In this document: positions 22,784 through 45,789 of the stretch, piece by piece
Layout of the letters: each line of letters opens with the position of its first letter
How positions within the stretch are numbered: the first letter of the stretch is position 1
Assembly (NCBI RefSeq): GCF_900112525.1
Contig: NZ_FOMD01000003.1
Coordinates: 496,001-560,000 of the forward strand
DNA length: 64,000 bases
From: Klenkia taihuensis
Lineage (GTDB): Bacteria; Actinomycetota; Actinomycetes; Mycobacteriales; Geodermatophilaceae
Direction: 5' to 3'
Notes under the pieces: model-generated
What the model saw: the letters and a program-made list of their open reading frames with translations, nothing else
Told to the model about the DNA's origin: nothing
Database searches by the model: none
Program-made: the position numbers and the translations under genes

Positions 22784-23374
22784 TCAGCCGGCCAGCCAGC
22801 GGCGGGCCCAGCCGGACCCGTCGCGACGGAACTGCAGCCGCCGGCTGGCGGTGTCCGCCCCGCCGGCCCAGAACGTCAGCTCGACGGGGGCCACCCGGAA
22901 CCCCACCCAGGACGGCGCCGGCGGCGACCCGGCGTCCGTGGGCACGTCGGCGGCCCAGGCCGCCACCCGGCCGGCGCGGTCGCGCGCGGCCAGGTCGTCG
23001 TCGTTGAGCCAGGCCAGCCGGCGCAGGTGGTCCGACCGGGCCGCCCACACCCGGGCCGCGGACGCGTCGGCGTCGGGGACGACGTCGCCGCGCACCACCA
23101 GCTGACGGGTGGACCCGGGCCAGCTGAGCACCAGGGCGGCCCGGGGGAGGACGTCCAGCTCGGCGACCTTGCGGCTGGACCGGTGGGTGTGGAAGGCGAA
23201 CCCGGACCGGTCCACCGCGCTGACCAGCACGGTGCGGGCGTTCGGGTAGCCGTCGGCGCCGGTTGTGGACAGCACCGCCTGCGGCCGGTCGGCGTCGTCG
23301 TCGGCGGGCAGCCAGTCGGCCACCAGCTCCCACGGGTCGTCGCCGGGGTCGGCGTCGGCCTGCAGGTCGATCAC
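22784..23374 (-). CDS. Pyridoxamine 5'-phosphate oxidase-like flavoprotein
   Basis: 196 residues, FMN-binding split-barrel fold. PQAVLSTTGADGYPNARTVLV, FAFHTHRSSRKVAEL, AALVLSWPGSTRQLVVRGDV and GFRVAPVELTFWAGGADTASRRLQF follow the PdxH pattern. The C-terminal WARRWLAG departs from the PdxH ending, so a different substrate is possible. The GTG start overlaps the stop of the FAD-linked oxidase gene (GTGA), so the two flavoproteins are cotranscribed. It could be the vitamin B6 enzyme or a dedicated oxidase of the adjacent catabolic cluster. Confidence 0.8.
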   Translation of the reverse strand: MIDLQADADPGDDPWELVADWLPADDDADRPQAVLSTTGADGYPNARTVLVSAVDRSGFAFHTHRSSRKVAELDVLPRAALVLSWPGSTRQLVVRGDVVPDADASAARVWAARSDHLRRLAWLNDDDLAARDRAGRVAAWAADVPTDAGSPPAPSWVGFRVAPVELTFWAGGADTASRRLQFRRDGSGWARRWLAG

Positions 23375-24705
23375 CGGACGGCGCCCTTGGTGGGGCCGCC
23401 GTAGTCGGGGTTGAGCTTGCCCGGGTTGAGCAGGCCGCCGGGGTCGGTGCGCCGGGCGGTCTCGACCGTGCGGGCGAGCTGGAAGTCCACGTTCCACTGG
23501 TGCGGGTCGTGCACGCCCACGCCGAGGGCCTCCAGCGCCGCGATGCCCTCGCGCACCTGCTCGGGGCTGCGGTAGACCCCGGCGAGCATGCCGATCGGCC
23601 CGGAGTGGCCGACCTCGTTGTGCAGCAGCGCACCCTCGAAGACCTGGTGCACCTCGTCGACCCGGTCGACCAGCGCCTGGCCGCCGACCTCGAGGTGGAA
23701 GTAGACCCCCGGGGCGCTCTTCTGCAGCCACTCGATGGGGTGGTTGTAGCTGAGCACGCTGAGGCCCAGCGGCACCTGCGGGCCCTCGCGCACGTCCTCG
23801 ACGCGCCCGCCGGCCGCCTCCACCGCCGCGCGGGCGGCCTCGACCGTGGAGGCCTCCAGGATCCCGCGCACGCTGGCCCGCCCGGCCGGGAACGCCGGGT
23901 CCTCGGGCAGCGCGGCGGTGATCTCGGGGGTGTCGGCCGAGACCAGCCGCGGCGTGGGCTCCAGCTTCCCCAGCGCCACCATGACGGCCTGCGCGGTGCG
24001 GAAGTCCGCGCAGCTGGCGTAGAACCCGACCCACTCCTGCAGCGGCTCCAGCCGCACGGTCGCGCGGGCGATGACCCCCGCCGTCCCGTAGTTGTGCACG
24101 TAGAGCTGGGCCTCCTCGCCCTCGACGTGCACCAGCTCGCCGGAGCCGTCGGCGTGCACCACGTCCAGGGCGGCGACGAAGCCGGCGTCGTTGGTGCCGT
24201 GCACGATGCTGCCGGTGCCGCCGGACCCGCCGGCGAGGAAACCGCCCAGCGAGCTCTGCACCGTCGAGGGGTACATCCACAGCTGCTGGCCGGTGGCCTG
24301 CGCGGCCCGCTCGCAGGTGACCATCGGGGTGCCCGCCTCGGCGGTGAGCAGGCCGTCGGTGACCTCGACGACCGCGCGGGCCCGGGAGAGGTCGAGCACC
24401 AGGCCGCCGGCCATCGGGATGCCCTGCCCGTAGTTGCCGGTGCCCTTGCCGCGCGGGGTCACCGGCACGCCCAGCCGGACGGCGGCGGCCACCGCCTGCG
24501 CGGCGAGCTCCGCGGTGGTGGGGAAGGCGACCAGGTCGGCGACGCCGAGGGGCAGCAGCTCGCTGATGATCGGGCTCATCCGCGCGCCGTCCACCGAGAC
24601 CCGTTCGCGCACCCGCAGCTCGCTGCTGACGTTGCGCTCGCCGAGCAGCGCGGCGAGCTCGGTCTCCAGCTGGGACAGGGCGGTGGGGGCGGCCGTCGTC
24701 GTCAC
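23371..24705 (-). CDS. FAD-binding oxidoreductase (VAO/PCMH type)
   Basis: 444 residues. The PCMH-type FAD domain has LVAFPTTAELAAQAVAAAV, TPRGKGTGNYGQGIPMAGG and GGFLAGGSGGTGSI. The C-terminal segment GGLLNPGKLNPDYGG closes the family pattern. Members oxidise alcohols, hydroxy acids or amines, with FAD often covalently held; here no histidine can be assigned as the linkage with confidence. It is divergent from the reductase gene at 24795 across an 89-bp region with candidate operators, which ties it to the catabolic cluster. Confidence 0.85.
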   Translation of the reverse strand: MTTTAAPTALSQLETELAALLGERNVSSELRVRERVSVDGARMSPIISELLPLGVADLVAFPTTAELAAQAVAAAVRLGVPVTPRGKGTGNYGQGIPMAGGLVLDLSRARAVVEVTDGLLTAEAGTPMVTCERAAQATGQQLWMYPSTVQSSLGGFLAGGSGGTGSIVHGTNDAGFVAALDVVHADGSGELVHVEGEEAQLYVHNYGTAGVIARATVRLEPLQEWVGFYASCADFRTAQAVMVALGKLEPTPRLVSADTPEITAALPEDPAFPAGRASVRGILEASTVEAARAAVEAAGGRVEDVREGPQVPLGLSVLSYNHPIEWLQKSAPGVYFHLEVGGQALVDRVDEVHQVFEGALLHNEVGHSGPIGMLAGVYRSPEQVREGIAALEALGVGVHDPHQWNVDFQLARTVETARRTDPGGLLNPGKLNPDYGGPTKGAVR

Positions 24706-24714
24706 GCCGTGGAC

Positions 24715-24746
24715 GGAACCGCACCGCGGTTACATCCGTGTGACCC
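24715..24746. promoter_or_regulatory. Candidate operator in divergent region
   Basis: GGAACCGC and GCGGTTAC (24715-24733) form a near-perfect inverted repeat. The right arm continues as GGTTACATCCGTGTGACCC, which closely resembles GGTTACGTCTGCGTGCACCC at 39014 in another divergent region of the same cluster. A common regulator is an inference. Confidence 0.35.
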
Positions 24747-24794
24747 TTCTGCGTCATCTGCACCCGGCGGGCCCGACGTGTGCAGGATCGGCCG

Positions 24795-25751
24795 GTGAGC
24801 TTCTTCTCCGACGTCGAACGCGACCTGGTGGTGGCCGGTCGCACCCTGCTCGCCGACGGCGTGCTGGCCCTGGACCTGGTGTCCCACAACGGCCGCGACC
24901 TGCCCGCGTGGACGCCCGGCTCGCACCTGGACCTCGTCGTCCGCCCGGGCCTGGAGCGGCAGTACTCGCTGTGCGGGGACGTCGCCGACCGGGCCACCTG
25001 GCGGGTCGCCGTGCTGCGCGAGGCCGACGGCGGCGGCGGGTCGCGGGCGCTGCACGACGACGTCGAGGTGGGCCAGCGGCTGCGGGTGCGCGGGCCGCGC
25101 AACCACTTCCCGTTCGAGGTCACCCCGGGCACCCGGTACCTCTTCGTCGCCGGCGGCATCGGCATCACCCCGCTGCGCGCGATGGTCGCCGCCGCCGACG
25201 CGGCGGGCGCGGACTGGACCCTGGAGTACGCCGGCCGCTCGCGGGCGCGGATGGCCTTCGCCGCCGAGCTGGCCGCCGCCCACCCCGGCCGGGTGCGGCT
25301 GCACGCCGGCGACGAGGGAGACCGGCTCGACGTCGCGGCGCTGGACGTCGACGCGACCACCGCCGTCCACGCCTGCGGCCCGGCCAAGCTGCTCGACGCG
25401 CTGGAGGCCGCCGCCGCGGGCTGGGCCGGCACACTGCACGTCGAGCGGTTCGAGGCGAAGGAGTTCGGCGCCCCGGTGTGGCCGGACCCCTTCGAGGTGG
25501 AGCTCGCGCTCACCGGCACGACCGTCGTCGTCGAGCCCGGCACCTCGGTGCTCGACGCCCTGTCCGCCGAGGGGGTCGACGTGCTGTCGTCCTGCCGGGT
25601 GGGCACCTGCGGCACCTGCGAGACCCCCGTGCTGGAGGGTGCGGTCGAGCACCGCGACTCCGTGCTCAGCCCCGGCGAGCAGGCCGACGGCACCGCGATG
25701 ATGGTCTGCGTCTCCCGCGCCGCCGGCCCCCGGCTCGTGCTCGACCTGTGA
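24795..25751 (+). CDS. PDR/VanB-family oxidoreductase (FNR-like plus 2Fe-2S)
   Basis: 318-residue electron-transfer protein that passes electrons from NAD(P)H through FMN/FAD and a 2Fe-2S cluster to an oxygenase. The flavin site is RQYSLCGD, the nucleotide site is FVAGGIGITPLRAM, and the C-terminal ferredoxin domain has cysteines 267, 272, 275 (CRVGTCGTC) and 305. Such reductases serve Rieske demethylases (VanB type), and the only Rieske oxygenase here is at 36217. The GTG at 24795 follows AGGA; a GTG at 24780 is an alternative. The stop overlaps the next start (GTGA). Confidence 0.92.
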   Translation: MSFFSDVERDLVVAGRTLLADGVLALDLVSHNGRDLPAWTPGSHLDLVVRPGLERQYSLCGDVADRATWRVAVLREADGGGGSRALHDDVEVGQRLRVRGPRNHFPFEVTPGTRYLFVAGGIGITPLRAMVAAADAAGADWTLEYAGRSRARMAFAAELAAAHPGRVRLHAGDEGDRLDVAALDVDATTAVHACGPAKLLDALEAAAAGWAGTLHVERFEAKEFGAPVWPDPFEVELALTGTTVVVEPGTSVLDALSAEGVDVLSSCRVGTCGTCETPVLEGAVEHRDSVLSPGEQADGTAMMVCVSRAAGPRLVLDL

Positions 25752-26746
25752 CCGCCCCCGCCTGCCCCAAGGCGATGACCTACGGGCCGTGCGGCGGGGT
25801 GGCCGAGGACGGCAGCTGCGAGGTCGCACCGCACCCGTGCGCCTTCCTGCCGCTGCCCACGGTGCGCTGGCCCGGCGACCGGGTGACCCGCCCGGGCCCC
25901 GAGCCCCGGCTGCTCGCGCTGCTGCGGCAGCGGCCGGTGGTGGTGGCCGACCTGCCGGCCGTCGCGCTGTCCCGCGGGTCGCTGGAGCGCTGCGCGGACC
26001 TCGTCGCCGCCCGGGTGGACGCCGTGCTGCTGGGCGACCACGCGGCCGCCCGGGTGCAGTTCCCGCCGGCCTACCGCGCCGCGCTGGTGCAGGCCCGCGG
26101 CGTCCCGGTCTGGCAGGGCCTGAACTGCCGCGACCGCAACCGGGTCGCGCTGGAGGGCGAGCTGGCCGCGCTGGCCGACCTCGGCGTCGGCGCGGTGCAC
26201 TGCGTGACCGGCGACCACACCGCCACCGGCGACCGGCCCGACGCCCAGCCGGTGTTCGACCTGGACTCCACGCAGCTGGCCGCCGCGGCCCGGGCCGCCG
26301 GCCTGCTGGTGTCGGTGGGGGAGACCCCGCACGGCCCGCCCGCGCAGCGCCGCCCGCACCGGCTGGTCGAGAAGGCCCGCGCCGGCGCCGAGGTCTGCTT
26401 CGTCGACCACGCCGGCGGACCGGCCGAGCTGGCCGAGTTCGTCGGCGCGGCCACCGACGCCGGCGCGGACGTGCCCTTCGTCGCCTGCGTCGCGGTGGCC
26501 ACCGACCCCGGCTCGGTCGCCGAGCTGCGCCGGTTCACCGGGCTGCGGCTGCCCGCGGGCTACCTGGCCGGCATCGAGGGCGCCCGCGACCCCCGCCGGG
26601 CCGGGGTCGCCGCCGCCGTCGCGCTGGCCGAGGCCTACCTCGCCGTCCCCGGCGTGCGCGGCGTGGACCTCTCCGGGGTCGCCGCCCCCGGCACCGAAGC
26701 CACCACCGCCGCGGCCCTCGCGGAGATCGGGAGAGCACTGACATGA
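25748..26746 (+). CDS. Methylenetetrahydrofolate reductase-like protein with N-terminal Cys domain
   Basis: 332 residues. Residues 1-35 (CPKAMTYGPCGGV, DGSCEV, PCAF) carry four cysteines in the MTHFR_C/MetV-like arrangement, probably a metal site. The remainder is a MetF-like TIM barrel with GLNCRDRNRVALEGEL and VTGDHTATGDR. Where MetF has a conserved Gln in ITQFFF, this protein reads AEVCFVDHA, so folate binding or chemistry may differ. It lies between the demethylase-type reductase and a deaminase, with 4-bp overlaps on both sides. That suggests it handles methyl or C1 groups released from the cluster's substrate; this role is inferred. Confidence 0.78.
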   Translation: MTAPACPKAMTYGPCGGVAEDGSCEVAPHPCAFLPLPTVRWPGDRVTRPGPEPRLLALLRQRPVVVADLPAVALSRGSLERCADLVAARVDAVLLGDHAAARVQFPPAYRAALVQARGVPVWQGLNCRDRNRVALEGELAALADLGVGAVHCVTGDHTATGDRPDAQPVFDLDSTQLAAAARAAGLLVSVGETPHGPPAQRRPHRLVEKARAGAEVCFVDHAGGPAELAEFVGAATDAGADVPFVACVAVATDPGSVAELRRFTGLRLPAGYLAGIEGARDPRRAGVAAAVALAEAYLAVPGVRGVDLSGVAAPGTEATTAAALAEIGRALT

Positions 26747-27978
26747 GCCTGCTGCTGCGGTCGGTCACCACCGTCGACGGCGACGTCGTCGACGTCCGCT
26801 GCGACGGGGGGACGGTCGCCGAGGTCGCGCCGGTGCTCATCCCGGGCCCGGACGACGAGGTGCACGAGCTCGCCGGGTCCCACCTGCTGCCCGCCCCGGC
26901 CGAGCCGCACGCCCACCTGGACAAGGCGCTGACCAGCCACCGCGCGCCGAACCGCACCGGGGACCTGGCCGGCGCGATCGAGGCGATCCGGACCATCGCG
27001 GCCGGGTTCACCCACGAGGACCTGGTCGACCGGGCCACCCGCGCCGCGCACGAGTACCTGGCGAACGGCACCACCGCGATCCGCACGCACGCCGACCTCG
27101 GTGCGCACACCGGCCTGCGGCACGTCCGGGCGCTGCTGGAGGTCCGCGACGCCCTGGCGGGGCTGGTCGACGTCCAGGTCGTGGCGCTGTGCAGCGCGCC
27201 GTGGTCGCCGGGGGAGGCCGAGGCCAACGCCCGGCTGCTGGAGGAGGCCTGCGACCTGGGCGTCGACCTCGTCGGCGGCGCCCCGCACATGTGGCCCGAC
27301 CGCGCCGCCGGGCTGGACCTGTCCTTCGGCGTCGCGCAGCGCCGCGGCCTGCCGCTGGACCTGCACACCGACGAGACGCTGGACCCCACCGCGCAGGGCC
27401 TGCTGCACCTGGCACAGCGCGTGCGGGCCACCGGCTTCGGCCCCGGCGTCACCGCCAGCCACTGCGTCTCCCTGGGCGTGCACCCCCTGGAGGTCGCCCG
27501 GGCCACCGCCGCCGAGGTGGCCGCGGCCGGGGTCGGCGTCGTCGCGCTGCCGCAGACCAACCTCTACCTGCAGGGCCGGGAGTCGACCGTGGCCACCCCG
27601 CGCGGGCTGACCGCCGTCCGGGCGCTGCTGGACGCCGGGGCCGTGCTCGGCGCCGGCGGGGACAACCTGCGCGACCCGTTCAACCCGATGGGCCGGGCCG
27701 ACGCCTGCGAGGCGGCGTCCCTGCTGGTCACCTCCGGGCACCTGTCCACCCGCGAGGCCTGGGACGCCGTCAGCGCCGGCGCCCGGCGCTGCATGGGTCT
27801 GCCGGTGCCCGCGGCCGCCCCCGGGTCGGTCGCGGAGTTCCTCGTGGTGCGCGCGGAGAGCCTGGACGCCGCCGTCGCCGGGGCGGGCACCGACCGCCTC
27901 GTGGTCTCCCGCGGCCGGGTGGTGGCGAGCACGCAGGTGCAGCGGGTGTTCCCGGGGAGGGTCGTGGCCCAGTCGTGA
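26743..27978 (+). CDS. Cytosine-deaminase-like amidohydrolase
   Basis: 411-residue metal-dependent hydrolase of the CodA branch. Metal ligands are expected in EPHAHLDKAL (His56, His58), LDLHTDE, ASHCVS and AGGDNLRDPFNPMGRAD. Family members deaminate cytosine, creatinine, isoguanine and related cyclic amidines; the substrate cannot be assigned. The ATG overlaps the previous stop (ATGA), making the third gene of an operon of reductase, MTHFR-like protein and deaminase. Confidence 0.87.
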   Translation: MSLLLRSVTTVDGDVVDVRCDGGTVAEVAPVLIPGPDDEVHELAGSHLLPAPAEPHAHLDKALTSHRAPNRTGDLAGAIEAIRTIAAGFTHEDLVDRATRAAHEYLANGTTAIRTHADLGAHTGLRHVRALLEVRDALAGLVDVQVVALCSAPWSPGEAEANARLLEEACDLGVDLVGGAPHMWPDRAAGLDLSFGVAQRRGLPLDLHTDETLDPTAQGLLHLAQRVRATGFGPGVTASHCVSLGVHPLEVARATAAEVAAAGVGVVALPQTNLYLQGRESTVATPRGLTAVRALLDAGAVLGAGGDNLRDPFNPMGRADACEAASLLVTSGHLSTREAWDAVSAGARRCMGLPVPAAAPGSVAEFLVVRAESLDAAVAGAGTDRLVVSRGRVVASTQVQRVFPGRVVAQS

Positions 27979-28093
27979 CCAACCGGTCGGCGCCGTTCAC
28001 CGACGGCACACGCAGGCGAAACAGACCGCGCCCAAGGTGACCGCATCGCCCGGACAGCCGCCCGGGTGACCGCACACCGCACCGGAGGTGACC

Positions 28094-28873
28094 GTGAGCG
28101 CACCGGCCCCGACCGCTCCGCCCGCCGCCCCACCCACCGCGACCCGGGTCCTGGAGTTCGCCGACGTCGCCCGGCAGTTCCCCGACGGCACGGTCGCGCT
28201 CGAGGGCGTGGACCTGACCATCGACCGCGGTGAGTTCGTCACCGTCGTCGGCCCGTCCGGCTGCGGCAAGTCCACCCTGCTGCGCATCGCGTCGGGGCTG
28301 GACGCCGCCAGTGCCGGCTCGGCCCGGGTGGACGCCGAGCGGATCGGCTACGTCTTCCAGGACGCCACGCTGCTGCCCTGGCGCAGCGTGAAGAAGAACG
28401 TCGAGCTGCTCGCGGAGCTGCACGGCATGAGCAGGACCGCCACCAACCAGGCCGCCCTCGACGCCATCGAGCTCGTCGGGCTGCGCGGGCACGAGAAGAA
28501 GCTGCCCCGGGCGCTGTCCGGGGGCATGAAGATGCGCGCCTCCCTGGCCCGCTCGCTCACCCTCGACCCCGACCTCTTCCTCTTCGACGAGCCCTTCGGC
28601 GCGCTGGACGAGATCACCCGCGAGCGCCTCAACGACGAGCTCATCCGGCTGTTCGTGGCCAAGGGCTTCGGCGCGCTGTTCATCACCCACTCGGTGTCCG
28701 AGGCGGTCTACATGTCGACCCGGGTGCTGGTCATGAGCGGCCGCCCGGGCCGCATCGTGGAGTCCTTCGACGTCCCCTTCGGCAGCGACCGGACACCGGA
28801 GCTGCGGTTCACCCCGGAGTTCGCCAAGCTCGCCGGCGAGGTCTCCCACGCCCTGCGGGAGGGCCACTCGTGA
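28094..28873 (+). CDS. ABC transporter ATP-binding protein (NitT/TauT type)
   Basis: 259 residues. Walker A is GPSGCGKST, the Q-loop region VFQDATLLPW, the signature LSGGMKMRASLARSL, Walker B LFLFDEPFGALDE and the switch ITHSV. VFQDATLLPWRSVKKNV is typical of the nitrate/taurine/alkanesulfonate/pyrimidine importers. It energises uptake with the permease and binding protein that follow. I chose GTG at 28094, 5 nt after GGAGG; GTG at 28088 overlaps that site. The 115-bp region upstream separates it from the deaminase gene. Confidence 0.93.
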   Translation: MSAPAPTAPPAAPPTATRVLEFADVARQFPDGTVALEGVDLTIDRGEFVTVVGPSGCGKSTLLRIASGLDAASAGSARVDAERIGYVFQDATLLPWRSVKKNVELLAELHGMSRTATNQAALDAIELVGLRGHEKKLPRALSGGMKMRASLARSLTLDPDLFLFDEPFGALDEITRERLNDELIRLFVAKGFGALFITHSVSEAVYMSTRVLVMSGRPGRIVESFDVPFGSDRTPELRFTPEFAKLAGEVSHALREGHS

Positions 28874-29736
28874 CCGCCACCCTGGAGACCCCGACCACCA
28901 CCCCGGTGGCCGCCGGCACCACCCCCGCGCCGGTCGTGCGCCGCCGCCGGGGCCGCCGGGCGGTGAACCTGGTCCTGCCGGTCGCGGTGTTCGCCGCGCT
29001 CCTCGGGGTCTGGTACGCCATCACCTACCTGGTGCTGGACCCGGGCCGCCGGTTCCTCATGCCGGCCCCGCACACGCTCGTCACCGACGCGCTGCTGGAC
29101 CCCACCATCACCGACAAGGTGTGGCCGGCGCTGGGCCGCTCCATCGTGGTCACCTTCACCGGCCTGGCCATCGCCATCGTGATCGGCATGCTGTGGGCGA
29201 TCGCGATGAGCCAGAGCAAGGCCGTGGAGAGCTCGCTGTACCCCTACGCGGTCGCGCTGCAGTGCATCCCGATCCTGGCCCTGGTGCCGCTGATCGGCTT
29301 CTGGTTCGGGTTCGGCTTCCCGTCCCGGGTCATCGTCTGCGTGATGATCGCGCTGTTCCCGATCGTGTCGAACACGCTGTTCGGCATCCAGTCGGTCGAC
29401 CGCGGCCACCACGAGCTGTTCACCCTGCACAAGGCCGGCCGGACCACCCGGCTGCTCAAGCTGCAGCTGCCCGCGGCGCTGCCGGCCATCTTCGCCGGGT
29501 TCCGCATCTCCGCCGGCCTCTCGGTGGTCGGTGCGATCGTCGGTGACCTGTTCTTCAAGCAGGGCGAACCGGGCTTGGGGATCCTGCTGTCCAACTTCAG
29601 CTCCCGCCTGCAGGGCGCCCCGCTGTTCTTCACGATCGTGGTCACCGCCGCGCTCGGCTTCGCGGTGTTCTTCCTCTTCGGCTGGCTGTCCAAGCTCGTG
29701 GTCGGCAGCTGGTACGACCAGTCCCGCGACCGCTAG
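28870..29736 (+). CDS. ABC transporter permease (NitT/TauT type)
   Basis: 288 residues with about six membrane segments after a proline/arginine-rich cytoplasmic N-terminus. The EAA-type loop that contacts the ATPase is the segment ELFTLHKAGRTTRLLKLQLP, followed by ALPAIFAGFRISAGLSVVGAIVGDLF, as in SsuC/ThiX-type permeases. GTG start overlaps the ATPase stop. Confidence 0.92.
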   Translation: MTATLETPTTTPVAAGTTPAPVVRRRRGRRAVNLVLPVAVFAALLGVWYAITYLVLDPGRRFLMPAPHTLVTDALLDPTITDKVWPALGRSIVVTFTGLAIAIVIGMLWAIAMSQSKAVESSLYPYAVALQCIPILALVPLIGFWFGFGFPSRVIVCVMIALFPIVSNTLFGIQSVDRGHHELFTLHKAGRTTRLLKLQLPAALPAIFAGFRISAGLSVVGAIVGDLFFKQGEPGLGILLSNFSSRLQGAPLFFTIVVTAALGFAVFFLFGWLSKLVVGSWYDQSRDR

Positions 29737-29842
29737 GCAGCCCCCTCCCGGACCGCACCACCCGGGGCGCCCGTCGCCGTCCGTCCCGGTCACCGACACC
29801 CCGAACCCGAGGTGCCGGCCCCACCCATCCCCAGGAGCACGT

Positions 29843-31018: not shown

Positions 31019-31030
31019 TCCACCGCACAC

Positions 31031-31068
31031 CCGGCGCCCGTCACCCCACCCGGGGTGGCGGGCGCCGG
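31031..31068 (+). terminator. Terminator of the ABC importer operon
   Basis: 17-nt arms (CCGGCGCCCGTCACCCC, with its complement at 31052-31068) pair with one wobble, around a 4-nt loop, 12 bp after the binding-protein stop. Confidence 0.8.
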
Positions 31069-31082
31069 TGCGTTGCGCGACC

Positions 31083-38981: not shown

Positions 38982-39013
38982 GCGGGCACGGTGCCGGTGC
39001 GGCGTGACGTCTG

Positions 39014-39034
39014 GGTTACGTCTGCGTGCACCCC
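39014..39034. promoter_or_regulatory. Candidate operator in divergent region
   Basis: GGTTACGTCTGCGTGCACCC, closely similar to the sequence at 24728-24746, and preceded by a second ACGTCTG 11 bp upstream. It lies between the divergent flavoprotein and 2-oxoglutarate oxygenase genes. Confidence 0.3.
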
Positions 39035-39120
39035 TGGACGGCGGCCGCCGGGCGCGGTGAGGATCGCCGCACTCCCCGATGCGGCCACCCTGTCGCCGGG
39101 TACGAGGAAGGCACGCCATC

Positions 39121-40104
39121 GTGTCCAGCACCCCCGCCATCCCCGTCGTCGACGTATCGCCGGCGTTCGGCGACGACCCCGAGGCGCTGGCCGCCTGCGT
39201 CGCGCAGCTGCGGCACGCCCTGACCGAGGTCGGCTTCCTGCAGGTCGTCGGCCACCGCGTCGACCCCGCCGTGGTCGACGCGGCCTACGCCGCGATGGAC
39301 CAGGTCGCGGCCATGCCCGACGCCGAGCGGCGGGCGCTGGTCCGGCCCCGGGCCAGCTCGCGCGGGCTGTTCGAGGAGATCGACGACCGCGGCCGGGTGC
39401 TCAACCGGGCGCTGCAGTTCATGAAGTACAACGACCTTGCCGCCGCCGAGGCCGACGACGCGGTGGGCGGGCACCCCGACTACTTCGTGCCGAACGTGTG
39501 GCCCGAGCAGCTGCCGGGGTTCCGCACCACCTGGAAGGACTACGACGCCGCGACCCGGTCGCTGGCCGGCACGCTGATGGGCCTGTTCGCGCTGGCCATG
39601 GGCCTCCCGCGGGACTTCTTCGCCGAGCCGTTCAGCAAGGACGTGACGCTGTTCAGCGTCAACCTGTACCCGCCGCAGCCGGTGGACGACGACTACGTCG
39701 AGGAGGTCGTGCTCAACCCGCACGCCGACTCCGGTGGGCTGACCGTGCTGCACCAGCGCGGCACCTACGAGGGGCTGCAGGTGCGCGACGCGGCGGCCGG
39801 CTGGGTCACCGTGCCGCTGCGCGAGGACGCGTTCGTGATCAACATCGGGCACCTGATGTCGCGGTGGACCAACGGCCGGTTCCCGGCGACCGTGCACCGG
39901 GTGGTGGCCGGCCCCGACACGTCGGCGGAGCGGCAGTCGATCGCGATGTTCTTCCTGCCCAACATCGACCAGGTGGTGGCGCCGGTGGACACCATGGTCG
40001 GCGCCGAGGGCGCCCGCTTCCTGCCCATCACCGCCTACGACTGGCAGGAGCAGTTCATGAAGGAGTACGTGCTGGTCAACAGCTACGCCGAACCGGTCAG
40101 CTGA
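39121..40104 (+). CDS. 2-oxoglutarate/Fe(II)-dependent oxygenase (IPNS-like)
   Basis: 327 residues, double-stranded beta-helix fold. An N-terminal DIOX_N-like domain (IPVVDVSPAFGDD...VGFLQVVGHRV) is followed by the iron triad His201-x-Asp203 (NPHADSGGLTVL) and His259 (ATVHRVV). The 2-oxoglutarate-binding Arg would be in the following AERQSIAMFFLP. Family members hydroxylate or N/O-demethylate small molecules; in this setting a second demethylation or ring hydroxylation is plausible. GTG start with AGGAAGG upstream. Confidence 0.9.
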   Translation: MSSTPAIPVVDVSPAFGDDPEALAACVAQLRHALTEVGFLQVVGHRVDPAVVDAAYAAMDQVAAMPDAERRALVRPRASSRGLFEEIDDRGRVLNRALQFMKYNDLAAAEADDAVGGHPDYFVPNVWPEQLPGFRTTWKDYDAATRSLAGTLMGLFALAMGLPRDFFAEPFSKDVTLFSVNLYPPQPVDDDYVEEVVLNPHADSGGLTVLHQRGTYEGLQVRDAAAGWVTVPLREDAFVINIGHLMSRWTNGRFPATVHRVVAGPDTSAERQSIAMFFLPNIDQVVAPVDTMVGAEGARFLPITAYDWQEQFMKEYVLVNSYAEPVS

Positions 40105-40176
40105 CCGCCGGCGCCGCCCCCTGCCCGGCACGTCCTCCCGCCCGACGTCGGGCCGTGGGCCACGCTGGGGTCGGCC

Positions 40177-41460
40177 TCAGCGGCGGGCGGCGAGCAGGCG
40201 GCGCAGGTCGGCGGCGACGTCGGCCTCGTCGCGGGTGACCAGCCGGCCGTCGCGCACGACCACCCGGCCACCGACCACCACGTGCTTCGGGCGCCGGCCG
40301 GGGGAGGCCCACAGCAGCCCCGCCACCGGGTCGGCCACCCCGGCGTCGGCGACCCCGCTGACGTCCCAGCAGACCAGGTCGGCGCGGGCCCCCACCTCCA
40401 GCCGGCCGAGGTCGGGCCGGCCCAGGCCGTCGGCCGAGCCGCGGGTGGCGAAGCCCAGCACCTCCTCCGCCGACAGCACCCGGCCGACGAGCGGCGCGAC
40501 CTGCATCGCCAGCCGGGCGTCGGCCAGGAGGTGACCGGCGTCGTTGGACCCGCCGCCGCTGGTGCCCAGCCCCACCGGCACGCCGGCGTCGGCCAGGGCG
40601 GCCACCGGCGCGATGCCCCACCCCATCGGCAGGTCGCAGCCCGGCGCGTGCGTCGCGCTCACCCCGGCCGCCGCGAGCCGGGCGACCTCGGCGTCGGTGA
40701 CGCCGCACAGGTGCGCCAGCGTGACGTCGGGGGCCAGCCAGCCCCACTCGTCGAGCAGCTCCAGCGGCCGCCGTCCGTACCGCTGCGCCGCGATGTCGAC
40801 GTCGACCTGCTCGTTGGCCTGGGTCCGGCGGCGCAGACCCCGCGCCGCGGCGACCTCGGCCATCAGGCGGAAGGTGTCCGGGCCGTCGCTGTGCACCCCG
40901 GCCGGGCCGACCGCCACCTGCAGGGTGCCGTCGGCGGTCACGCCGCCGTGGGGGACCAGCGCCGCGGCGACCGCGTCGGCCGAGGCGGCGGCGCCGGCCG
41001 CGTCGTCCCTGGCCGACCCGCGGACGAAGACCAGCCGGGCGCCGAGCTCCCGCGCCGCCGTCGCCACGGCGGAGGCGATCGCCACCCCGTCGCCGGTCGA
41101 CGCCGGCCAGGTGAGGTGGTGGTCGGCCACGGTGGTCACGCCGCACAGCAGCGCCTCCGCCAACCCGGCCGACGCCGCCGCGTGCGCCAGCTCCGGGTCG
41201 ACACCGACCGCGCCGTAGGCCGCAGCCATCGTCGGCAGCCACTGCGCCATCGGTACGCCGCGGGTGCCCGGCAGCGTGCGGAACGCCGTCTGCAGCAGGT
41301 GGTGGTGGGCGTTCACCAGCCCCGGCGTCACCACGCAGCCGGTGGCGTCCAGCACCTCGCCGCCCACCGCCGCGAACCCGGCCACCAGCCCGTCGTCGTC
41401 GCACGAGACCTCCCGGGAGGTCGACCCGAGCACGGCCACGGCACCGGTCACGTCCATCAC
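40177..41460 (-). CDS. Amidohydrolase, 8-oxoguanine-deaminase-like
   Basis: 427 residues. Metal-binding HxH is in PGLVNAHHHLLQT (His52, His54), with TTVADHHLTW, ANEQ (in place of the usual HxxE), ATHAPGCDLPMGWGIAPV and GTSGGGSNDAGHLLADARLAM. The overall pattern is that of 8-oxoguanine deaminase and hydroxyatrazine hydrolases, but the HxxE ligand appears replaced by NEQ and the canonical catalytic Asp region reads GGGSND. The predicted substrate is an amino-substituted ring. GTG at 41460 is chosen over the adjacent ATG because CAGGGT sits 7 nt upstream, as in leaderless genes nearby. Confidence 0.85.
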   Translation of the reverse strand: MMDVTGAVAVLGSTSREVSCDDDGLVAGFAAVGGEVLDATGCVVTPGLVNAHHHLLQTAFRTLPGTRGVPMAQWLPTMAAAYGAVGVDPELAHAAASAGLAEALLCGVTTVADHHLTWPASTGDGVAIASAVATAARELGARLVFVRGSARDDAAGAAASADAVAAALVPHGGVTADGTLQVAVGPAGVHSDGPDTFRLMAEVAAARGLRRRTQANEQVDVDIAAQRYGRRPLELLDEWGWLAPDVTLAHLCGVTDAEVARLAAAGVSATHAPGCDLPMGWGIAPVAALADAGVPVGLGTSGGGSNDAGHLLADARLAMQVAPLVGRVLSAEEVLGFATRGSADGLGRPDLGRLEVGARADLVCWDVSGVADAGVADPVAGLLWASPGRRPKHVVVGGRVVVRDGRLVTRDEADVAADLRRLLAARR

Positions 41461-41540
41461 GCGACCGACCCTGGCAGCCGTGTGTTCCGGTCAGGTGTCG
41501 GCTGGAACGCGACCGTCACCGGGCTGCAACGACGCGGTCC

Positions 41541-41546
41541 TAGCGT
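41541..41546 (+). promoter_or_regulatory. -10 of leaderless creatininase operon
   Basis: TAGCGT, 8 nt before the GTG start of the creatininase-family gene. Upstream, GGAAC (41504), GTCAC (41515) and GCAAC (41526) recur at 11-bp steps and may be an activator site. Confidence 0.45.
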
Positions 41547-41554
41547 CCGCTGCC

Positions 41555-42334
41555 GTGACCGCCCGCCTGCTCACCGAGCTCTCCGCCCCCGCCATCGCCG
41601 ACGCGCTCGGCCCGGACTCGGTGCTGGTGCTGCCGACCGGGGCGATCGAGCAGCACGGCCCGCACCTGCCGGTCGCCACCGACCTGATCACCGCGCAGAG
41701 CATGGCCGAGCGTGCGGTCGCGGAGTTCGGCGAGGAGCTCGACCTCTGGCTGCTGCCGCCGCTGGCCTACACCAAGAGCAACGAGCACCACTGGAGCTGC
41801 GGCACCTTCTGGCTCTCGGCGCAGACGCTGCTGGGCGTGCTGCACGACCTTTGCGCCTCGATGACGAAGACCCCGGCCCGCCGGCTGGCGTTCCTCAACG
41901 GCCACGGCGGCAACTCCGCGCTGCTGCAGGTGGCCGCCCGCGACCTGCGGATCGCCTACGGCCTGCGCACCTTCACGATGCACCCCTCGCTGCCGGCCGA
42001 CCACGGCGGGACGAGCCCGGAGAGCGAGCTCGGCCTGGGCATCCACGGCGGGCACGAGGAGACCTCGCTGATGCTGCACCTGCGTCCGGAGCTGGTGGAC
42101 ATGGAGCAGGCGCAGCGCTGGGTGCCCGAGCAGCTGACCGAGTACCGGCACGTCCGGTTCGGCGGGTCGGTGAGCTTCGGCTGGACCTCCGACGACTTCG
42201 GCCCGGACGGGGTGATCGGCGACGCCAGCACCGCCACCGCCGAGCACGGCAAGGAGAAGGCCGAGGCGATGCTCGCCCACCTCGGCGAGGCCTTCGCCGA
42301 GGTGGCCCGCTTCGACCCCGGCCCGCGCGCGTGA
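41555..42334 (+). CDS. Creatininase family protein
   Basis: 259 residues. Metal ligands follow the family pattern: Glu32 and His34 in PTGAIEQHGPHLP, Asp43, NGHGGNS (114-120) and the HEET block near 166-169. The family opens cyclic amides (creatinine, formylaminopyrimidines) and also includes MftE peptidases; no mycofactocin genes are present. As first gene of a tightly overlapped five-gene operon it probably performs a ring-opening step. The start appears leaderless. Confidence 0.9.
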   Translation: MTARLLTELSAPAIADALGPDSVLVLPTGAIEQHGPHLPVATDLITAQSMAERAVAEFGEELDLWLLPPLAYTKSNEHHWSCGTFWLSAQTLLGVLHDLCASMTKTPARRLAFLNGHGGNSALLQVAARDLRIAYGLRTFTMHPSLPADHGGTSPESELGLGIHGGHEETSLMLHLRPELVDMEQAQRWVPEQLTEYRHVRFGGSVSFGWTSDDFGPDGVIGDASTATAEHGKEKAEAMLAHLGEAFAEVARFDPGPRA

Positions 42335-43086
42335 GGCTGGCCGGCAAGCGCGTCGTCGTCACCGGCGGCGCACGCGGCATCGGCGCGGCCATGGTGCGCA
42401 CCTTCGCCGCCGAGGGCGCCGCGGTCGCCGTCCTGGACGTGCTGGCCGAGGAGGCCGGCAAGCTCGCCGCGGAGGTGGGCGGGCACGCCGTCGAGGTCGA
42501 CCTGGCCGACGTGGCCGCCACCCGCGCGGCCACCCAGAGCGCCGTCGACGCCCTCGGCGGGGTCGACGTGCTGGTCAACAACGCCGGCATCCTGCGCTTC
42601 GCCCCGCTGCTGGACATCGAGCCGCACGAGTGGGACGAGGTGTTCGCCGTCAACGTCCGCGCGATGCTGGTCACCACCCAGGTCGCCGTCACCTCGATGG
42701 TCGCCCAGCGGGCCCCGGCGTTCCCCGGCGACGTCGTCGGCAAGGTCGTCAACACCGCGTCGATGGGCGGCAAGGCCGGGGGCGCGGGGCAGGCGCACTA
42801 CGCCGCGTCCAAGGCCGCGGTCATCGGGCTCACCCGCGCGGCCGCCGAGGAGCTGGGGCCGCTGGGCATCACCGCCACCTGCCTGTGCCCGGGGTACGTG
42901 CTCACCGAGATGGGCGCCGGCACGCGCACCGACGCCGACGTCGCCCGCTGGTCGGCGCGGTCGCCGCTGGGCCGGCTGGGCCAGCCCGAGGACGTCGCCC
43001 GCGCCGCGCTGTTCCTGGCGTCCCCGGACTCCGACTACCTGACCGGCGAGGCGCTCAACGTGGCCGGCGGGATGGTCACGCATTGA
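42331..43086 (+). CDS. SDR family oxidoreductase
   Basis: 251 residues, classical short-chain dehydrogenase: TGGARGIG cofactor loop (about 11-18), LVNNAG, catalytic Ser in NTASMGG, Tyr and Lys in YAASK. Asp in AVLDVLAEE at the end of beta-2 suggests NAD(H) preference. It oxidises or reduces an alcohol/carbonyl in the operon's pathway. GTG start overlaps the creatininase stop (GTGA). Confidence 0.93.
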   Translation: MRLAGKRVVVTGGARGIGAAMVRTFAAEGAAVAVLDVLAEEAGKLAAEVGGHAVEVDLADVAATRAATQSAVDALGGVDVLVNNAGILRFAPLLDIEPHEWDEVFAVNVRAMLVTTQVAVTSMVAQRAPAFPGDVVGKVVNTASMGGKAGGAGQAHYAASKAAVIGLTRAAAEELGPLGITATCLCPGYVLTEMGAGTRTDADVARWSARSPLGRLGQPEDVARAALFLASPDSDYLTGEALNVAGGMVTH

Positions 43087-43832
43087 CCCGCAATGCCTGG
43101 ACCCTCAGCGAGGACCACGTCGACCTGCGCCGGCCGGCGCAGGCACCCAGGCCCGTCGAGGTCATGGCGCTGCCCCAGCGGCTGACCCTCGACCTGGCCC
43201 GCACCGCGCTGGTCGCCGTCGACCTGCAGAACGACTTCTGCCACCCCGACGGCTGGCTGGCCTCGATCGGCGTCGACGTCTCCGGTGCTGCGGCGCCCGT
43301 CGCCGCGCTCGCCGCCGCCCTGCCCGGGCTGCGCGCGGCCGGCGTCCCCGTGGTGTGGCTGAACTGGGGCAACCGGCCCGACCGGGCCGACCTGCCGCCC
43401 GGCGTCCGGCACGTCTACGACCCCGACGGCGCCTCCACCGGCATCGGCGACCCGCTGCCGGGCGGGTCCCGGGTGCTCGAAGCCGGCTCCTGGTCGGCCG
43501 CGCTGGTCGACGAGCTGGTGCCCGGCCCGGGCGACCTGCACGTGGCCAAGCAGCGGATGAGCGGGTTCCCCGGCACCCCGCTGGACGCCGTGCTGCGCAA
43601 CCTGCGGGTGGACACCCTGCTGTTCGCCGGGGTCAACACCGACCAGTGCGTCTACGCCACGCTCGTCGACGCGGCGAACCTCGGCTACGACGTCGTCCTG
43701 GTCGAGGACCTGTGCGGCACCACCTCGCCGGGCTTCTGCACCGAGGCGACCGTCTACAACGTGCGCCAGTGCTTCGGCTTCACCACCACCTCGGCCGACC
43801 TGCGCGCCGGCCTCGACCCCCAGGAGCCCTGA
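43083..43832 (+). CDS. Cysteine hydrolase, RutB/biuret-hydrolase-like (isochorismatase superfamily)
   Basis: 249 residues. The catalytic triad is Asp47 (VAVDLQNDFC), Lys156 (HVAKQRMSGF) and Cys189 (NTDQCVYAT). The pattern of FPGTPLDAVLRNLRVDTLLF and EDLCGTTSP is that of RutB, biuret amidohydrolase and N-carbamoylsarcosine amidohydrolase, which cleave ureido/carbamoyl groups to ammonia and CO2. I chose TTG at 43083, which overlaps the SDR stop as TTGA, because the N-terminal block NAWTLSEDHVDLRRPAQAPR looks like conserved family sequence; ATG at 43164 would remove it. Confidence 0.88.
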   Translation: MTRNAWTLSEDHVDLRRPAQAPRPVEVMALPQRLTLDLARTALVAVDLQNDFCHPDGWLASIGVDVSGAAAPVAALAAALPGLRAAGVPVVWLNWGNRPDRADLPPGVRHVYDPDGASTGIGDPLPGGSRVLEAGSWSAALVDELVPGPGDLHVAKQRMSGFPGTPLDAVLRNLRVDTLLFAGVNTDQCVYATLVDAANLGYDVVLVEDLCGTTSPGFCTEATVYNVRQCFGFTTTSADLRAGLDPQEP

Positions 43833-44269
43833 TGGCCCTCGCCCCCGTCGTCAAGTCGCTGTCCGACATCACCCCGCACTACATCGGCGAGAACCGCACC
43901 GTGCGGCTGGCCGTGCTGTCCGGCCCGGCCGACGGGTCCTCGACCACGGTGGTGCTGGAGATCTGGGAGCCCGGCGGCTCGCAGCCGGACAACTCGCACG
44001 AGGCCTCCACCGAGACCTTCGTGGTGCTGCGCGGGACCGCGCGGGCGCACAGCGACGAGCACGTCGCCGACCTCGGGCCGGGTGACGTCATCGTGCTGCC
44101 GGCCACCTCGGTGCACCACATCGTCAACACCTCGGCGACCGAGCGGCTGTACACGATCACCGTGATGGAGAACGACGGCGGCTTCGCCGACCTGATCCTC
44201 ACCGGCCCGGAGGCCTTCCTGGACGCCGACGACGCCGCGGTGCTCGGCGCAGTCCTCACCTCGGCGTGA
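43832..44269 (+). CDS. Cupin domain protein
   Basis: 145 residues with a single cupin barrel: ETFVVLRGTARAHSDEHVADLGPGDVIVLPATSVHHIVNTS. Metal ligands are likely among NSHEASTE and HHIVN. It could be an isomerase or dioxygenase of the pathway, or a small regulator. ATG shares one base with the previous stop (TGATG). Confidence 0.85.
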   Translation: MALAPVVKSLSDITPHYIGENRTVRLAVLSGPADGSSTTVVLEIWEPGGSQPDNSHEASTETFVVLRGTARAHSDEHVADLGPGDVIVLPATSVHHIVNTSATERLYTITVMENDGGFADLILTGPEAFLDADDAAVLGAVLTSA

Positions 44270-45789
44270 CGGTCGAGCAGGAGGTCCGGGCCGCCGTCGC
44301 GCGGTACGAGGCGGCGCTGGCCGCCGACGACCTGGCCGAGCTCGACGCCCTGTTCGCCCCCGGCGAGGACACCCTGCGGGCCGACGCCGCCGGCGTGCTC
44401 GTCTCGCACGCCGCGATCAGCGCCTACCGCCGCGGCCGCGGCGGCGCGCCGGCGCGGGAGGTCGTCGCGCTGCACGTCGTCGCGCACACCCCGGACCTGG
44501 CGACGGCGGTCGCGGAGACCCGCCGGCCCGACGGCACCCGCGGGCTGCAGACCCAGGTCTGGGAGCGCGGCGCGGCCGGCTGGCAGGTCCGGGTCGCGCA
44601 CGTCAGCTCCGGCCCCCAGCCGCTGGACCCGGTCGAGGACCCCACGACCTGGCGGGTGCTGGGCTCCCCGCTGGTGGCGCCCACCGGCACCGGCCCGCTG
44701 GACGGCGTGGCGGTCGCGGTCAAGGACCTGGTGGCCGTCGCCGGGCAGCGGGTGGGCGCGGGCAACCCGACCAAGCTCGCGCTGGCCCGCACCGAACCCG
44801 CGCACGCGCCGGTGCTCGCCGCGCTGCTGGCCGCCGGGGCGCACGTGCGGGGCATCGCCACCACCGACGAGCTGGCCTACAGCATCTCGGGCACCAACGT
44901 GCACACCGGCAGCCCGGCCAACCCGTGGGGCGCCGGGCTGGCCGTCGGCGGGTCGACCAGCGGACCGGCCGGCGCGGTCGCCCGCGGCCAGGCCGACCTG
45001 GGGCTGGGCACCGACACCGCCGGGTCGATCCGGGTGCCGGCGTCCTGGTGCGGGCTGCACGGCCTGCGGCCCACCCACGGCGCGCTGCCGCTGGACGGCG
45101 TGGCCCCGCTGGCCTCCGGCTTCGACGTCGTCGGCTGGCTGACCCGCGACGCCGGGCTGCTGCACCGCACCGCGCAGGTGCTGCTGCCCCCGGCCGACCC
45201 GGTCACCGAGCTGCTGCTGGCCGAGGACCTGCTGGAGCTGGCCGCCCCGCCGGTCGCCGACCTGGTGCGGGCGGTGGCCGCGGCGTCCGGGCTGCCGGTG
45301 CGCACCACGCGGCTGACCGCCGGCGAGGAGCACGAGGCCTGGTTCACCGCGTTCCGCGCCGCGCAGGGCGCGCAGGCGTGGGCGGTGCACGGGGCCTGGG
45401 TGACCGCGCACGGCGGCACGCTCGGCCCGGGCATCGCGCAGCGGTTCGCCGACGCCGCCGCGGTGACCGCCGCCGACGCCGAGCGCGCCGCCGAGGTGGT
45501 GGCCGCGGCCCGGACGGCGCTGCGCGACCGCATCGGACCGGGCACCGCCGTCCTCGCCCCGGCCACCAGCACCACCGCCCCGCCGGTGGTCGCGGCCGCC
45601 GCGGACAAGGCGGCGCTGCGCGGGGCCACGCTGCGGCTGACCTGCCTGGCCGGTCTCGGTGGGCTGCCCTCGGCGGTGGCCCCCGCCGGCCGGGTCGGCG
45701 GCCACCCGGCCGGCGTCGCGCTGATCGGGGCGGCCGGGGCGGACACCGCGCTCACCGGCCTGCTGGCCGCCTGGGACCGGACGCCGTAG
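44266..45789 (+). CDS. AtzH-like domain fused to amidase
   Basis: 507 residues. Residues 1-125 are an NTF2-like AtzH domain (ARYEAALAADDLAELDALF, VSHAAISAYRRGRG). From about 140 the amidase-signature domain begins: Lys153 in AVAVKDLVAVAG, VGGSTSGPAGAVARG, LGLGTDTAGSIRVPASWCGLHGLRP. Residue spacing around the Ser-cisSer-Lys triad is intact. In cyanuric acid breakdown AtzE is an amidase and AtzH a separate protein, both acting on carboxylated ureas; here the two are one chain. Predicted last hydrolytic step, on a ureido or carbamate product. GTG start overlaps the cupin stop. Confidence 0.9.
   Translation: MTVEQEVRAAVARYEAALAADDLAELDALFAPGEDTLRADAAGVLVSHAAISAYRRGRGGAPAREVVALHVVAHTPDLATAVAETRRPDGTRGLQTQVWERGAAGWQVRVAHVSSGPQPLDPVEDPTTWRVLGSPLVAPTGTGPLDGVAVAVKDLVAVAGQRVGAGNPTKLALARTEPAHAPVLAALLAAGAHVRGIATTDELAYSISGTNVHTGSPANPWGAGLAVGGSTSGPAGAVARGQADLGLGTDTAGSIRVPASWCGLHGLRPTHGALPLDGVAPLASGFDVVGWLTRDAGLLHRTAQVLLPPADPVTELLLAEDLLELAAPPVADLVRAVAAASGLPVRTTRLTAGEEHEAWFTAFRAAQGAQAWAVHGAWVTAHGGTLGPGIAQRFADAAAVTAADAERAAEVVAAARTALRDRIGPGTAVLAPATSTTAPPVVAAAADKAALRGATLRLTCLAGLGGLPSAVAPAGRVGGHPAGVALIGAAGADTALTGLLAAWDRTP

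Follow-up and report, generated by a model that had tools for sequence, protein, structure and literature searches.

What do the products of a tightly packed gene island in the soil actinobacterium Klenkia taihuensis break down? The window analyzed here is a stretch of 64,000 nucleotides (NCBI RefSeq assembly GCF_900112525.1, contig NZ_FOMD01000003.1, positions 496,001 to 560,000), and the island occupies positions 22784-45789 of it, between gene 19 (B_ant repeat) on one side and gene 41 (kup) on the other. A gene map based on codon-position composition placed 21 genes, numbered 20-40, in the island, where they mostly overlap or abut one another in alternating-strand blocks. An earlier note on this DNA had recognized the same packed set, with a count of 20 genes where we find 21, and had read it as a single pathway for an N-methylated nitrogen heterocycle. 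The core of the island probably encodes the import and catabolism of pterins (folate-type pteridines), draining into urate and ureide breakdown. We infer the substrate, the reactions and the order of the steps from gene content, conservation, context, predicted folds and residues.

Results

A ten-gene core is co-inherited in Geodermatophilaceae

The binding-protein gene of the island (gene 27) was found in 21 of 112 Geodermatophilaceae genomes and the VAO-family flavoprotein gene (gene 21) in 19, all of them among the 21 (Fisher p = 1.5e-19, with the relatedness of the genomes uncorrected). Gene content was counted in 20 related genomes, in stretches fetched around the matches and with the window excluded; matches were accepted from 48% identity over 30% of the protein. 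The substrate-binding protein, the ATP-binding cassette (ABC) importer permease (gene 26) and the creatininase-family protein (gene 36) were encoded in all 20; the CodA-like amidohydrolase (gene 24), the importer ATPase (gene 25) and the TrzN-like amidohydrolase AmdH2 (gene 35) in 19; the TRZ/ATZ amidohydrolase AmdH1 (gene 31) in 18; the VAO flavoprotein and the VanB-type reductase (gene 22) in 17; and the PNPOx-like oxidase (gene 20) in 16. The other genes were the AtzH-amidase (gene 40), present in 12; the Rieske oxygenase (gene 32), isochorismatase-fold hydrolase (gene 38) and cupin (gene 39), in 11 each; the MTHFR-like protein (gene 23) and SDR dehydrogenase (gene 37), in 10 each; the FmdA-family formamidase (gene 30) and CrtO-like protein (gene 33), in 9 each; the amidase (gene 29), in 8; the 2-oxoglutarate (2OG)-Fe(II) oxygenase (gene 34), in 5; and the LLM flavoprotein (gene 28), in 3. 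Contig ends account for some absences (genomes G082 and G096), the VAO gene of G080 sits elsewhere in its genome, and G066 lacks a VAO gene.

Genomes G018, G090, G093, G099, G100, G108, G109 and G110 had, within the 20 kb fetched, the ten core genes but no copy of the remaining eleven. G080 and G066 carried the AtzH-amidase/isochorismatase/cupin module and the Rieske gene apart from the core. Together with the counts, these arrangements indicate that ten genes are inherited together and that the other eleven are add-ons. The island in Geodermatophilaceae is thus a co-inherited ten-gene core accompanied by eleven add-on genes, which include a separable AtzH-amidase/formamidase/isochorismatase/cupin module. 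The co-occurrence across Geodermatophilaceae and other actinobacteria to which the earlier note had looked therefore holds for the core (in the wider actinobacteria for most of it) and fails for the eleven variable genes, and these 20 related genomes do not support the idea of one 20-gene pathway.

The same genus provided two comparisons. In Klenkia genome G076, the VAO gene lies at 166288-167619 of contig C7. Klenkia genome G077 gave no match to genes 21, 27 and 32; its gene 17 lies within about 1 kb of gene 50 (locus L206), and no match to genes 18-49 was found in the 18 kb read. What this comparison reveals is a variable region, wider than the island that sits in it, rather than a clean insertion.

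Three side observations were made in the family. In G066 (L089), no VAO, VanB or PNPOx gene lies near the binding-protein gene, and a 53% identical LLM gene stands beside the MTHFR-like gene. A second VAO-type gene (29-35% identical) lies near a creatininase or AtzH-amidase gene in L097, L100, L102, L103, L086 and L094, which are clusters of genus g9 of Geodermatophilaceae. The Rieske matches of G087 and G096 (L063 and L065) cross one in-frame TGA, perhaps because the match overruns the end of the gene.

The core extends to other actinobacteria

An alignment of the VAO protein was scanned against 84,980 species genomes and returned at least 584 relatives, of which the best 80 were analyzed. 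Genes were counted up to 10 kb on each side of the VAO gene, at 35% identity or more over half the length; since the loci were picked by the VAO gene, its presence in 80 of 80 is by construction. The core recurred: binding protein in 74 loci, ATPase and permease in 72 each, CodA-like and creatininase-family proteins in 71 each, PNPOx in 66, VanB in 63 and AmdH2 in 54. Next came the MTHFR-like gene (30), SDR (26), AmdH1 (11), FmdA (10) and AtzH-amidase (8), and the rarest were cupin (7), isochorismatase (5), amidase (3) and LLM (2). No Rieske, CrtO-like or 2OG gene was found within 10 kb in any of the 80 loci; in the Klenkia loci these genes fall outside that reach. Among the 63 loci of at least 20 kb, the binding protein was present in 62 and the CodA-like gene in 61. 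In Streptomyces, loci L187 and L190, with L191 alike, carry consecutive CodA-like, ABC, VAO, creatininase, cupin, AtzH-amidase, isochorismatase and FmdA genes. Of 246 genomes sampled across the phylum, only that of the window itself gave a match to gene 21 at E 1e-30, and the cluster is therefore uncommon, despite the relatives found in the larger set. In Agreia PsM10 (L137, 1-4500), a second binding-protein match adjoins AmdH1, isochorismatase and cupin genes.

The VAO flavoprotein is related to an oxygenase deposited under folate catabolism

Island proteins were scanned against Pfam and NCBIfam (for NCBIfam, the best 25 matches per protein). Among the matches listed, only SDR gene 37 passed a curated NCBIfam cut-off (216.3 versus 215 bits, subfamily model), and the gene names used here are therefore family-level rather than substrate-level.

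Gene 21 (23371-24705, minus strand) belongs to PF01565 (FAD_binding_4). Its profile matched the solved structures 6v42/6v43 at E 1.8e-69, followed by D-lactate dehydrogenases at 7.1e-23. An AlphaFold2 model of its 444 residues (predicted local distance difference test score, pLDDT, 87.3) aligned with 6v42 over 415 residues (Z 41.2, root-mean-square deviation 2.1, 28% identity), the next structure again being a D-lactate dehydrogenase (Z 32.6). The 6v42 entry is titled 'flavin oxygenase with cofactor bound involved in folate catabolism'. Gene 21 thus shares the VAO fold of 6v42/6v43 over nearly the full chain and is closer to them than to other solved VAO enzymes. The two differ in their sequence distances: VAO copies on Rhizobium plasmids share up to 66% identity with 6v42, which indicates that the solved protein is of the proteobacterial type, and a close relative of those copies sits in the Rhizobium cluster described below. 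We predict that gene 21 encodes a flavin oxygenase of the pterin ring and that gene 22 (24780-25751, plus strand; PF00111 and NCBIfam reductase matches), of the VanB-type FNR/2Fe-2S family, supplies its electrons.

A smaller version of the cluster occurs on proteobacterial plasmids

Gene 21 is 30-32% identical to the VAO genes of three plasmids. Nine plasmid regions, picked from matches, were read, and VAO, creatininase, RidA and amidohydrolase genes occurred together in all nine, with the amidohydrolase annotated as cytosine deaminase or amidohydrolase family. Two of the cluster RidA proteins were tested and matched 'Endoribonuclease L-PSP' in Pfam. A three-gene ABC importer was present in eight of the nine regions; the exception, Ruegeria TM1040, has a single larger binding-protein gene with no adjoining ATPase or permease. 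In Klebsiella and Pantoea the reductase is of the PDR/VanB type and the gene order is VanB-deaminase-RidA-creatininase-ABC-VAO, and in Rhizobium, Agrobacterium, Pseudooceanicola, Alloyangia and a Comamonadaceae record it is an NAD(P)H oxidoreductase. On the Klebsiella pneumoniae plasmid (L193), these genes form a single row at 2734-10419, the deaminase gene being pterin-deaminase-like. Because VanB is kept in genomes lacking a related Rieske gene, and is replaced by an NAD(P)H oxidoreductase in Rhizobium and Agrobacterium, a role as reductase of the VAO enzyme fits better than one in an N-demethylase.

The amidohydrolase of this set corresponds to gene 24 (26743-27978, plus strand), whose residues H56, H58, H208, E211, H240 and D307, the metal and catalytic positions, are invariant in 12 aligned cluster members. 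Gene 24 is 31-37% identical to the proteobacterial cluster deaminases, which differ among themselves to a similar degree (Comamonadaceae versus Rhizobium, 36-37%; Klebsiella versus Rhizobium, 31-32%). Genome context reportedly led Fan et al. in 2013 to suggest that Arad3529 of Agrobacterium radiobacter starts an undescribed pterin degradation pathway. The pterin deaminase of Variovorax sp. F1, a 399-residue amidohydrolase, acts on folic and pteroic acid; its identity to Arad3529, likewise a proven pterin deaminase, is 37.0%, and a conserved endoribonuclease gene lies downstream of the deaminase gene in V. paradoxus (PMC9513972). The identity between the Comamonadaceae and Rhizobium cluster copies is close to that value, which is consistent with a relation to the published enzymes but no proof of it. 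The cluster deaminases resemble the Variovorax enzyme in being amidohydrolases with an adjoining endoribonuclease gene, which we read as RidA-type, as in the Klebsiella and Pantoea clusters. The setting of the window island differs in having no RidA gene and in carrying AmdH1, AmdH2, PNPOx, MTHFR-like, Rieske and other genes in addition. Context and sequence together suggest that gene 24 encodes a pterin deaminase (EC 3.5.4.11).

Urate and ureide genes neighbor the core

At least one urate-route gene lay within reach in 33 of the 80 actinobacterial loci: allantoinase in 24, uricase in 21, XdhC and hydroxyisourate (HIU) hydrolase in 18 each, 2-oxo-4-hydroxy-4-carboxy-5-ureidoimidazoline (OHCU) decarboxylase in 16 and a molybdenum hydroxylase subunit in 6. 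Their identities were assigned by Pfam on examples and by the NCBIfam model AllB (514.9 bits, over the cut-off of 357.85). In Herbiconiux (L134), about 19 kb hold XdhC, AmdH2, VanB, CodA-like, ABC, SDR, VAO, creatininase, PNPOx and MTHFR-like genes together with allantoinase, uricase, HIU hydrolase and OHCU decarboxylase, and thus five of the six urate-route genes sought sit with the core. The genome of the window has its genes for uricase, HIU hydrolase and OHCU decarboxylase on contig 10, apart from the island, and gives several molybdenum-hydroxylase-type matches.

Part of the add-on set has urate connections of its own. In genomes G022, G021, G003 and G091, the genes for FmdA and AtzH-amidase form an unbroken row with those for OHCU decarboxylase, HIU hydrolase, uricase and allantoinase (loci in which FmdA adjoins AtzH-amidase and urate-route genes: L094, L106, L107 and L108), and both are placed after allantoinase in L163 and L164. 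This contiguity makes the module look like an end-module of ureide breakdown. In the window it comprises gene 30 (33732-34862, minus strand; PF03069) and, on the plus strand, genes 38-40. Gene 38 (43083-43832; PF00857) is an isochorismatase-fold hydrolase similar to RutB and biuret hydrolase that does not reach the RutB equivalog cut-off (TIGR03614, 133.4 versus 377.95 bits). The cupin encoded by gene 39 (43832-44269; PF07883) weakly matches a model covering (S)-ureidoglycine aminohydrolase (25.2 bits, cut-off 350). Gene 40 (44266-45789; PF11533 and PF01425; HpxZ 74.5 bits, cut-off 135) resembles the AtzEGH/HpxYZ-type amidases in combining an AtzH-like domain with an amidase; it differs from them in being a single fused chain, and in being tied, in the four family genomes and in L163/L164, to uricase and allantoinase genes rather than to cyanurate genes.

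The urate-route neighbors would also suit a route for oxidized purines or purine salvage, in which the deaminases act on 8-oxoguanine-type bases or guanine and the remaining enzymes feed the urate route. Gene 35 (40177-41460, minus strand; best solved relative TrzN, 3ls9, E 1.5e-66) matches the 8-oxoguanine deaminase model with 268 bits, but this is under the curated cut-off of 532, and two of its metal ligands are replaced. The alignment of 70 relatives, a few of which may be genomes counted twice (as family genome and as named locus), preserves the HxH motif, the Glu and the fourth His, while the third metal His is replaced by Gln (Gln214) in 68 of 68 and the metal Asp by Ser (Ser301) in 70 of 70 sequences with a residue there. 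TrzN retains the third His and has Thr in place of the Asp, and gene 31 (AmdH1; 34859-36220, minus strand; PF01979) shows the HxH, the third and fourth His and the Asp in the alignment. Given this rebuilt and conserved metal site, we consider an ordinary 8-oxoguanine deaminase unlikely. A search of plasmids with gene 35 returned nothing at E 1e-80. A simple purine route would moreover have no need of a VAO oxygenase, a creatininase-family enzyme and a ThiY-fold importer, and no uricase gene was annotated beside the cluster in any of the nine plasmid regions, though VAO and creatininase are present there. We consider this explanation unlikely.

The predicted fold of the binding protein is of the aminopyrimidine-binding type

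The importer is encoded on the plus strand by the ATPase gene 25 (28088-28873; PF00005, with taurine/nitrate-type proteins as best NCBIfam match), the permease gene 26 (28870-29736; PF00528) and gene 27 (29885-31018). Gene 27 gave no match in the Pfam and NCBIfam scans, so that the assignment as a ThiY-like binding protein, already made in the earlier note and upheld here, rests on the predicted fold. Its AlphaFold2 model (pLDDT 93.7) is closest to the formylaminopyrimidine (FAMP)-binding protein 3ix1 (Z 26.9) and the thiamin-binding protein 4nmy (Z 26.5), which are tied, followed by Thi5 (Z 23.4); Foldseek likewise put 3ix1 and 4nmy first. Gene 27 thus resembles the ThiY/NMT1 binding proteins, and its closest solved folds bind aminopyrimidines. 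We predict that it binds pterins.

The same folds would serve the catabolism of thiamin-derived aminopyrimidines, such as hydroxymethylpyrimidine (HMP)/toxopyrimidine or FAMP. The CodA-like enzyme could deaminate a 4-amino group, and the PNPOx-like and SDR enzymes could oxidize the hydroxymethyl arm. Set against this are the nearest solved relative of the VAO protein, which is by its deposit title a folate-catabolism oxygenase, and the identified neighbors, which are purine genes, not thiamin genes. Such a route is, in our judgment, distinctly unlikely.

The add-on genes do not define an N-demethylation pathway

Several add-ons could be taken as parts of an oxidative N-demethylation pathway, which the earlier note had favored for a substrate such as creatinine, methylhydantoin or methylxanthine; the island has Rieske/VanA_C, VanB, MTHFR-like, creatininase-family and CodA-like genes. 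The Rieske, MTHFR-like and LLM genes, however, are present in just 11, 10 and 3 of the 20 related genomes, so that roughly half of the related clusters, or more, retain the core without them. The Rieske gene occurs at 70% identity or more in 12 of the 112 family genomes, the window included. MTHFR-like matches of some kind were found in 59 of the 112, many of them lower-identity copies (about 50%) elsewhere in the genome. Gene 36 does not reach the creatininase equivalog cut-off (102.6 versus 235 bits), and no creatinase or hydantoinase match was found among the island genes in the Pfam and NCBIfam scans. Degradation of an N-methylated heterocycle is therefore not favored and seems very improbable.

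The add-ons outside the ureide module, SDR gene 37 apart, are instead lineage-specific additions, possibly for side chains or for methylated or reduced folates. The MTHFR-like gene 23 (25748-26746, plus strand; PF02219 at 26.3 bits, cut-off 24) had no solved relative at E 0.01, and a 48% paralogue lies at another place in the genome; perhaps the gene 23 product acts on a reduced folate or pterin. The others are the LLM-class flavoprotein gene 28 (31122-32306, plus; PF00296), the amidase-signature gene 29 (32303-33712, plus; PF01425), the Rieske gene 32 with its VanA_C domain (36217-37320, minus; PF00355/PF19112), gene 33 (37422-38981, minus) and the 2OG-Fe(II) oxygenase gene 34 (39121-40104, plus; PF03171/PF14226). 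SDR gene 37 (42331-43086, plus; PF13561) is a frequent accessory gene. The protein families named in the earlier note are borne out by Pfam and NCBIfam; gene 33, called PYROXD2-like there, matches CrtO/phytoene-desaturase models (CrtO 202.6 bits, cut-off 1000).

An oxidative pyrimidine route (cytosine to uracil, barbiturate and ureidomalonate) could draw on the CodA-like, VAO, ring-opening and amidase enzymes, with the VAO protein as uracil dehydrogenase and the creatininase-family enzyme replacing barbiturase, but it is the least probable reading, since the VAO protein matches 6v42 far better than other solved sequences and gene 24 lacks the CodA residues that we take to be cytosine contacts. 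Those residues are Gln156 and Asp314 of E. coli CodA. When the window protein was aligned with CodA, no Gln was found at the first position and Asn replaced the Asp at the second, and this Asn is invariant in the 12 cluster members; nor does gene 24 reach the NCBIfam cytosine deaminase cut-off (PRK07583, 222.2 versus 403 bits). The oxidative pyrimidine route, a creatinine/methylhydantoin route to parabanate and the thiamin/HMP route had been set aside after the 6v42 match.

Other features of the window

Between genes 15 and 16, at 18104-18149, lies a 46-nt near-perfect palindrome (23-nt arms, 91%). About 100 bases around it recur in both orientations in at least dozens of places in Klenkia genomes G000 (that of the window), G076 and G077, and the palindrome is thus a dispersed, REP (repetitive extragenic palindrome)-like element of Klenkia. 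A cyclic di-AMP riboswitch (Rfam, 60.2 bits, gathering score 38) was identified at 5402-5563, ahead of gene 5 and far upstream of the island; the Rfam scan of the window returned nothing else. Within the kup gene, ARAGORN placed a minus-strand tRNA-Thr at 46453-46546, probably a false call.

Discussion

A pteridine is favored as the substrate because of the relation to 6v42, the predicted pterin deaminase, the aminopyrimidine-type binding protein and the neighboring urate genes. In the route that we propose, pterins would be imported by the ThiY-fold binding protein and the ABC importer. Reduced pterins may first be oxidized by the PhzG/PNPOx-like oxidase, for which gene 20 is the candidate (22784-23374, minus strand; PF01243/PF10590); its best NCBIfam match is PhzG (101.9 bits, cut-off 270), and its solved relatives, of which 4hmw is the best (E 9.6e-24), are PNPOx/PhzG proteins. 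The CodA-like amidohydrolase would remove the 2-amino group, converting pterin to lumazine, and the VAO-type flavin oxygenase, with electrons from the VanB or NAD(P)H-type reductase, would oxidize the pyrazine ring. The oxidized ring would be opened or rearranged by cyclic-amide hydrolysis through the creatininase-family enzyme, together with one TRZ/ATZ amidohydrolase; gene 36 (41555-42334, plus strand; PF02633 at 222 bits and alignment with solved creatininases) is thus a putative ring-opening lactam hydrolase. Xanthine dehydrogenase, uricase and allantoinase-type enzymes would drain the purine-like product, and the AtzH-amidase/formamidase/isochorismatase/cupin module may finish the release of ureide nitrogen. 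A catabolic set for a nitrogen heterocycle, with import, deamination, oxidation and ring opening as predicted steps, was also the general view of the earlier note, and we agree with it that the set does not reproduce any complete Rut, creatinine, allantoin or cyanurate pathway.

Folate and isoxanthopterin are classically degraded in Alcaligenes through tetraoxopteridine and xanthine-8-carboxylate, and that route is like the proposed one in that the substrate is deaminated, its ring is oxidized and the product enters xanthine/urate, in line with the neighborhood. Judging by their titles, Levenberg and Hayaishi (1959) and McNutt (1963) are said to have dealt with folate and pterin deamination. 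To our knowledge, the later steps of the Alcaligenes route have no assigned genes. A route through tetraoxopteridine and xanthine-8-carboxylate would explain the purine neighbors. It is conceivable, if doubtful, that the core encodes complete aerobic degradation of the pteridine ring, from import to xanthine/urate, with gene 35 catalyzing a step other than deamination, such as contraction of the oxidized ring to an imidazole. Conversion of tetraoxopteridine to xanthine-8-carboxylate is an activity known since the 1960s, for which we know of no gene.

Parts of the system are already known from Proteobacteria, and some steps have no assigned gene. Among the entries listed, searches of the literature and the PDB on pterin-ring catabolism turned up nothing beyond carboxypeptidase G, a single solved oxygenase and a pterin deaminase from bacteria. 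A description of the actinobacterial cluster was not found among the open-licence PMC papers listed, which is no proof of absence; the one relevant paper among them was PMC9513972, whose examined parts describe the deaminase and carboxypeptidase G rather than this cluster, and no such cluster appeared in a term search of PMC7662398 or in the examined passages of PMC11121863.

Several points weigh against pterins as the substrate. The function of 6v42 is known from its deposit title, and gene 21 is just 28% identical to it. The assignment of gene 24 draws on context and on a level of identity, which is weak evidence, other cluster pairs being 31-32% identical. The best folds for gene 27 bind thiamin-type aminopyrimidines, and a thiamin or HMP substrate fits them equally. 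The Pfam and NCBIfam scans recognized neither a RidA gene nor carboxypeptidase G or any further folate-specific gene in the island. In 47 of the 80 loci no urate gene was found, and none at the window island either. Two loci of more than 21 kb keep little of the core (VAO and VanB in L153; VAO and the binding protein in L179). Two of the nine plasmid regions, those of Nitratireductor and Ruegeria, have neither VanB nor an NAD(P)H oxidoreductase beside the VAO gene; Nitratireductor has an FAD-dependent oxidoreductase in its place, and Ruegeria has none so named. Finally, the literature search found no printed assay of a protein from an actinobacterial cluster.

Almost all cells make folates and other pterins, yet the genes that return the nitrogen of the pterin ring to the environment are little known. 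With the ten-gene core of the family, mostly conserved in the wider actinobacteria, and its reduced counterpart on plasmids of rhizobia and enterobacteria, each gene of the route can be put to the test. If the pterin assignment is true, it would explain why uricase and allantoinase genes are frequent neighbors of the core, and would correct names that its genes bear in databases, among them cytosine deaminase, creatininase and 8-oxoguanine deaminase.

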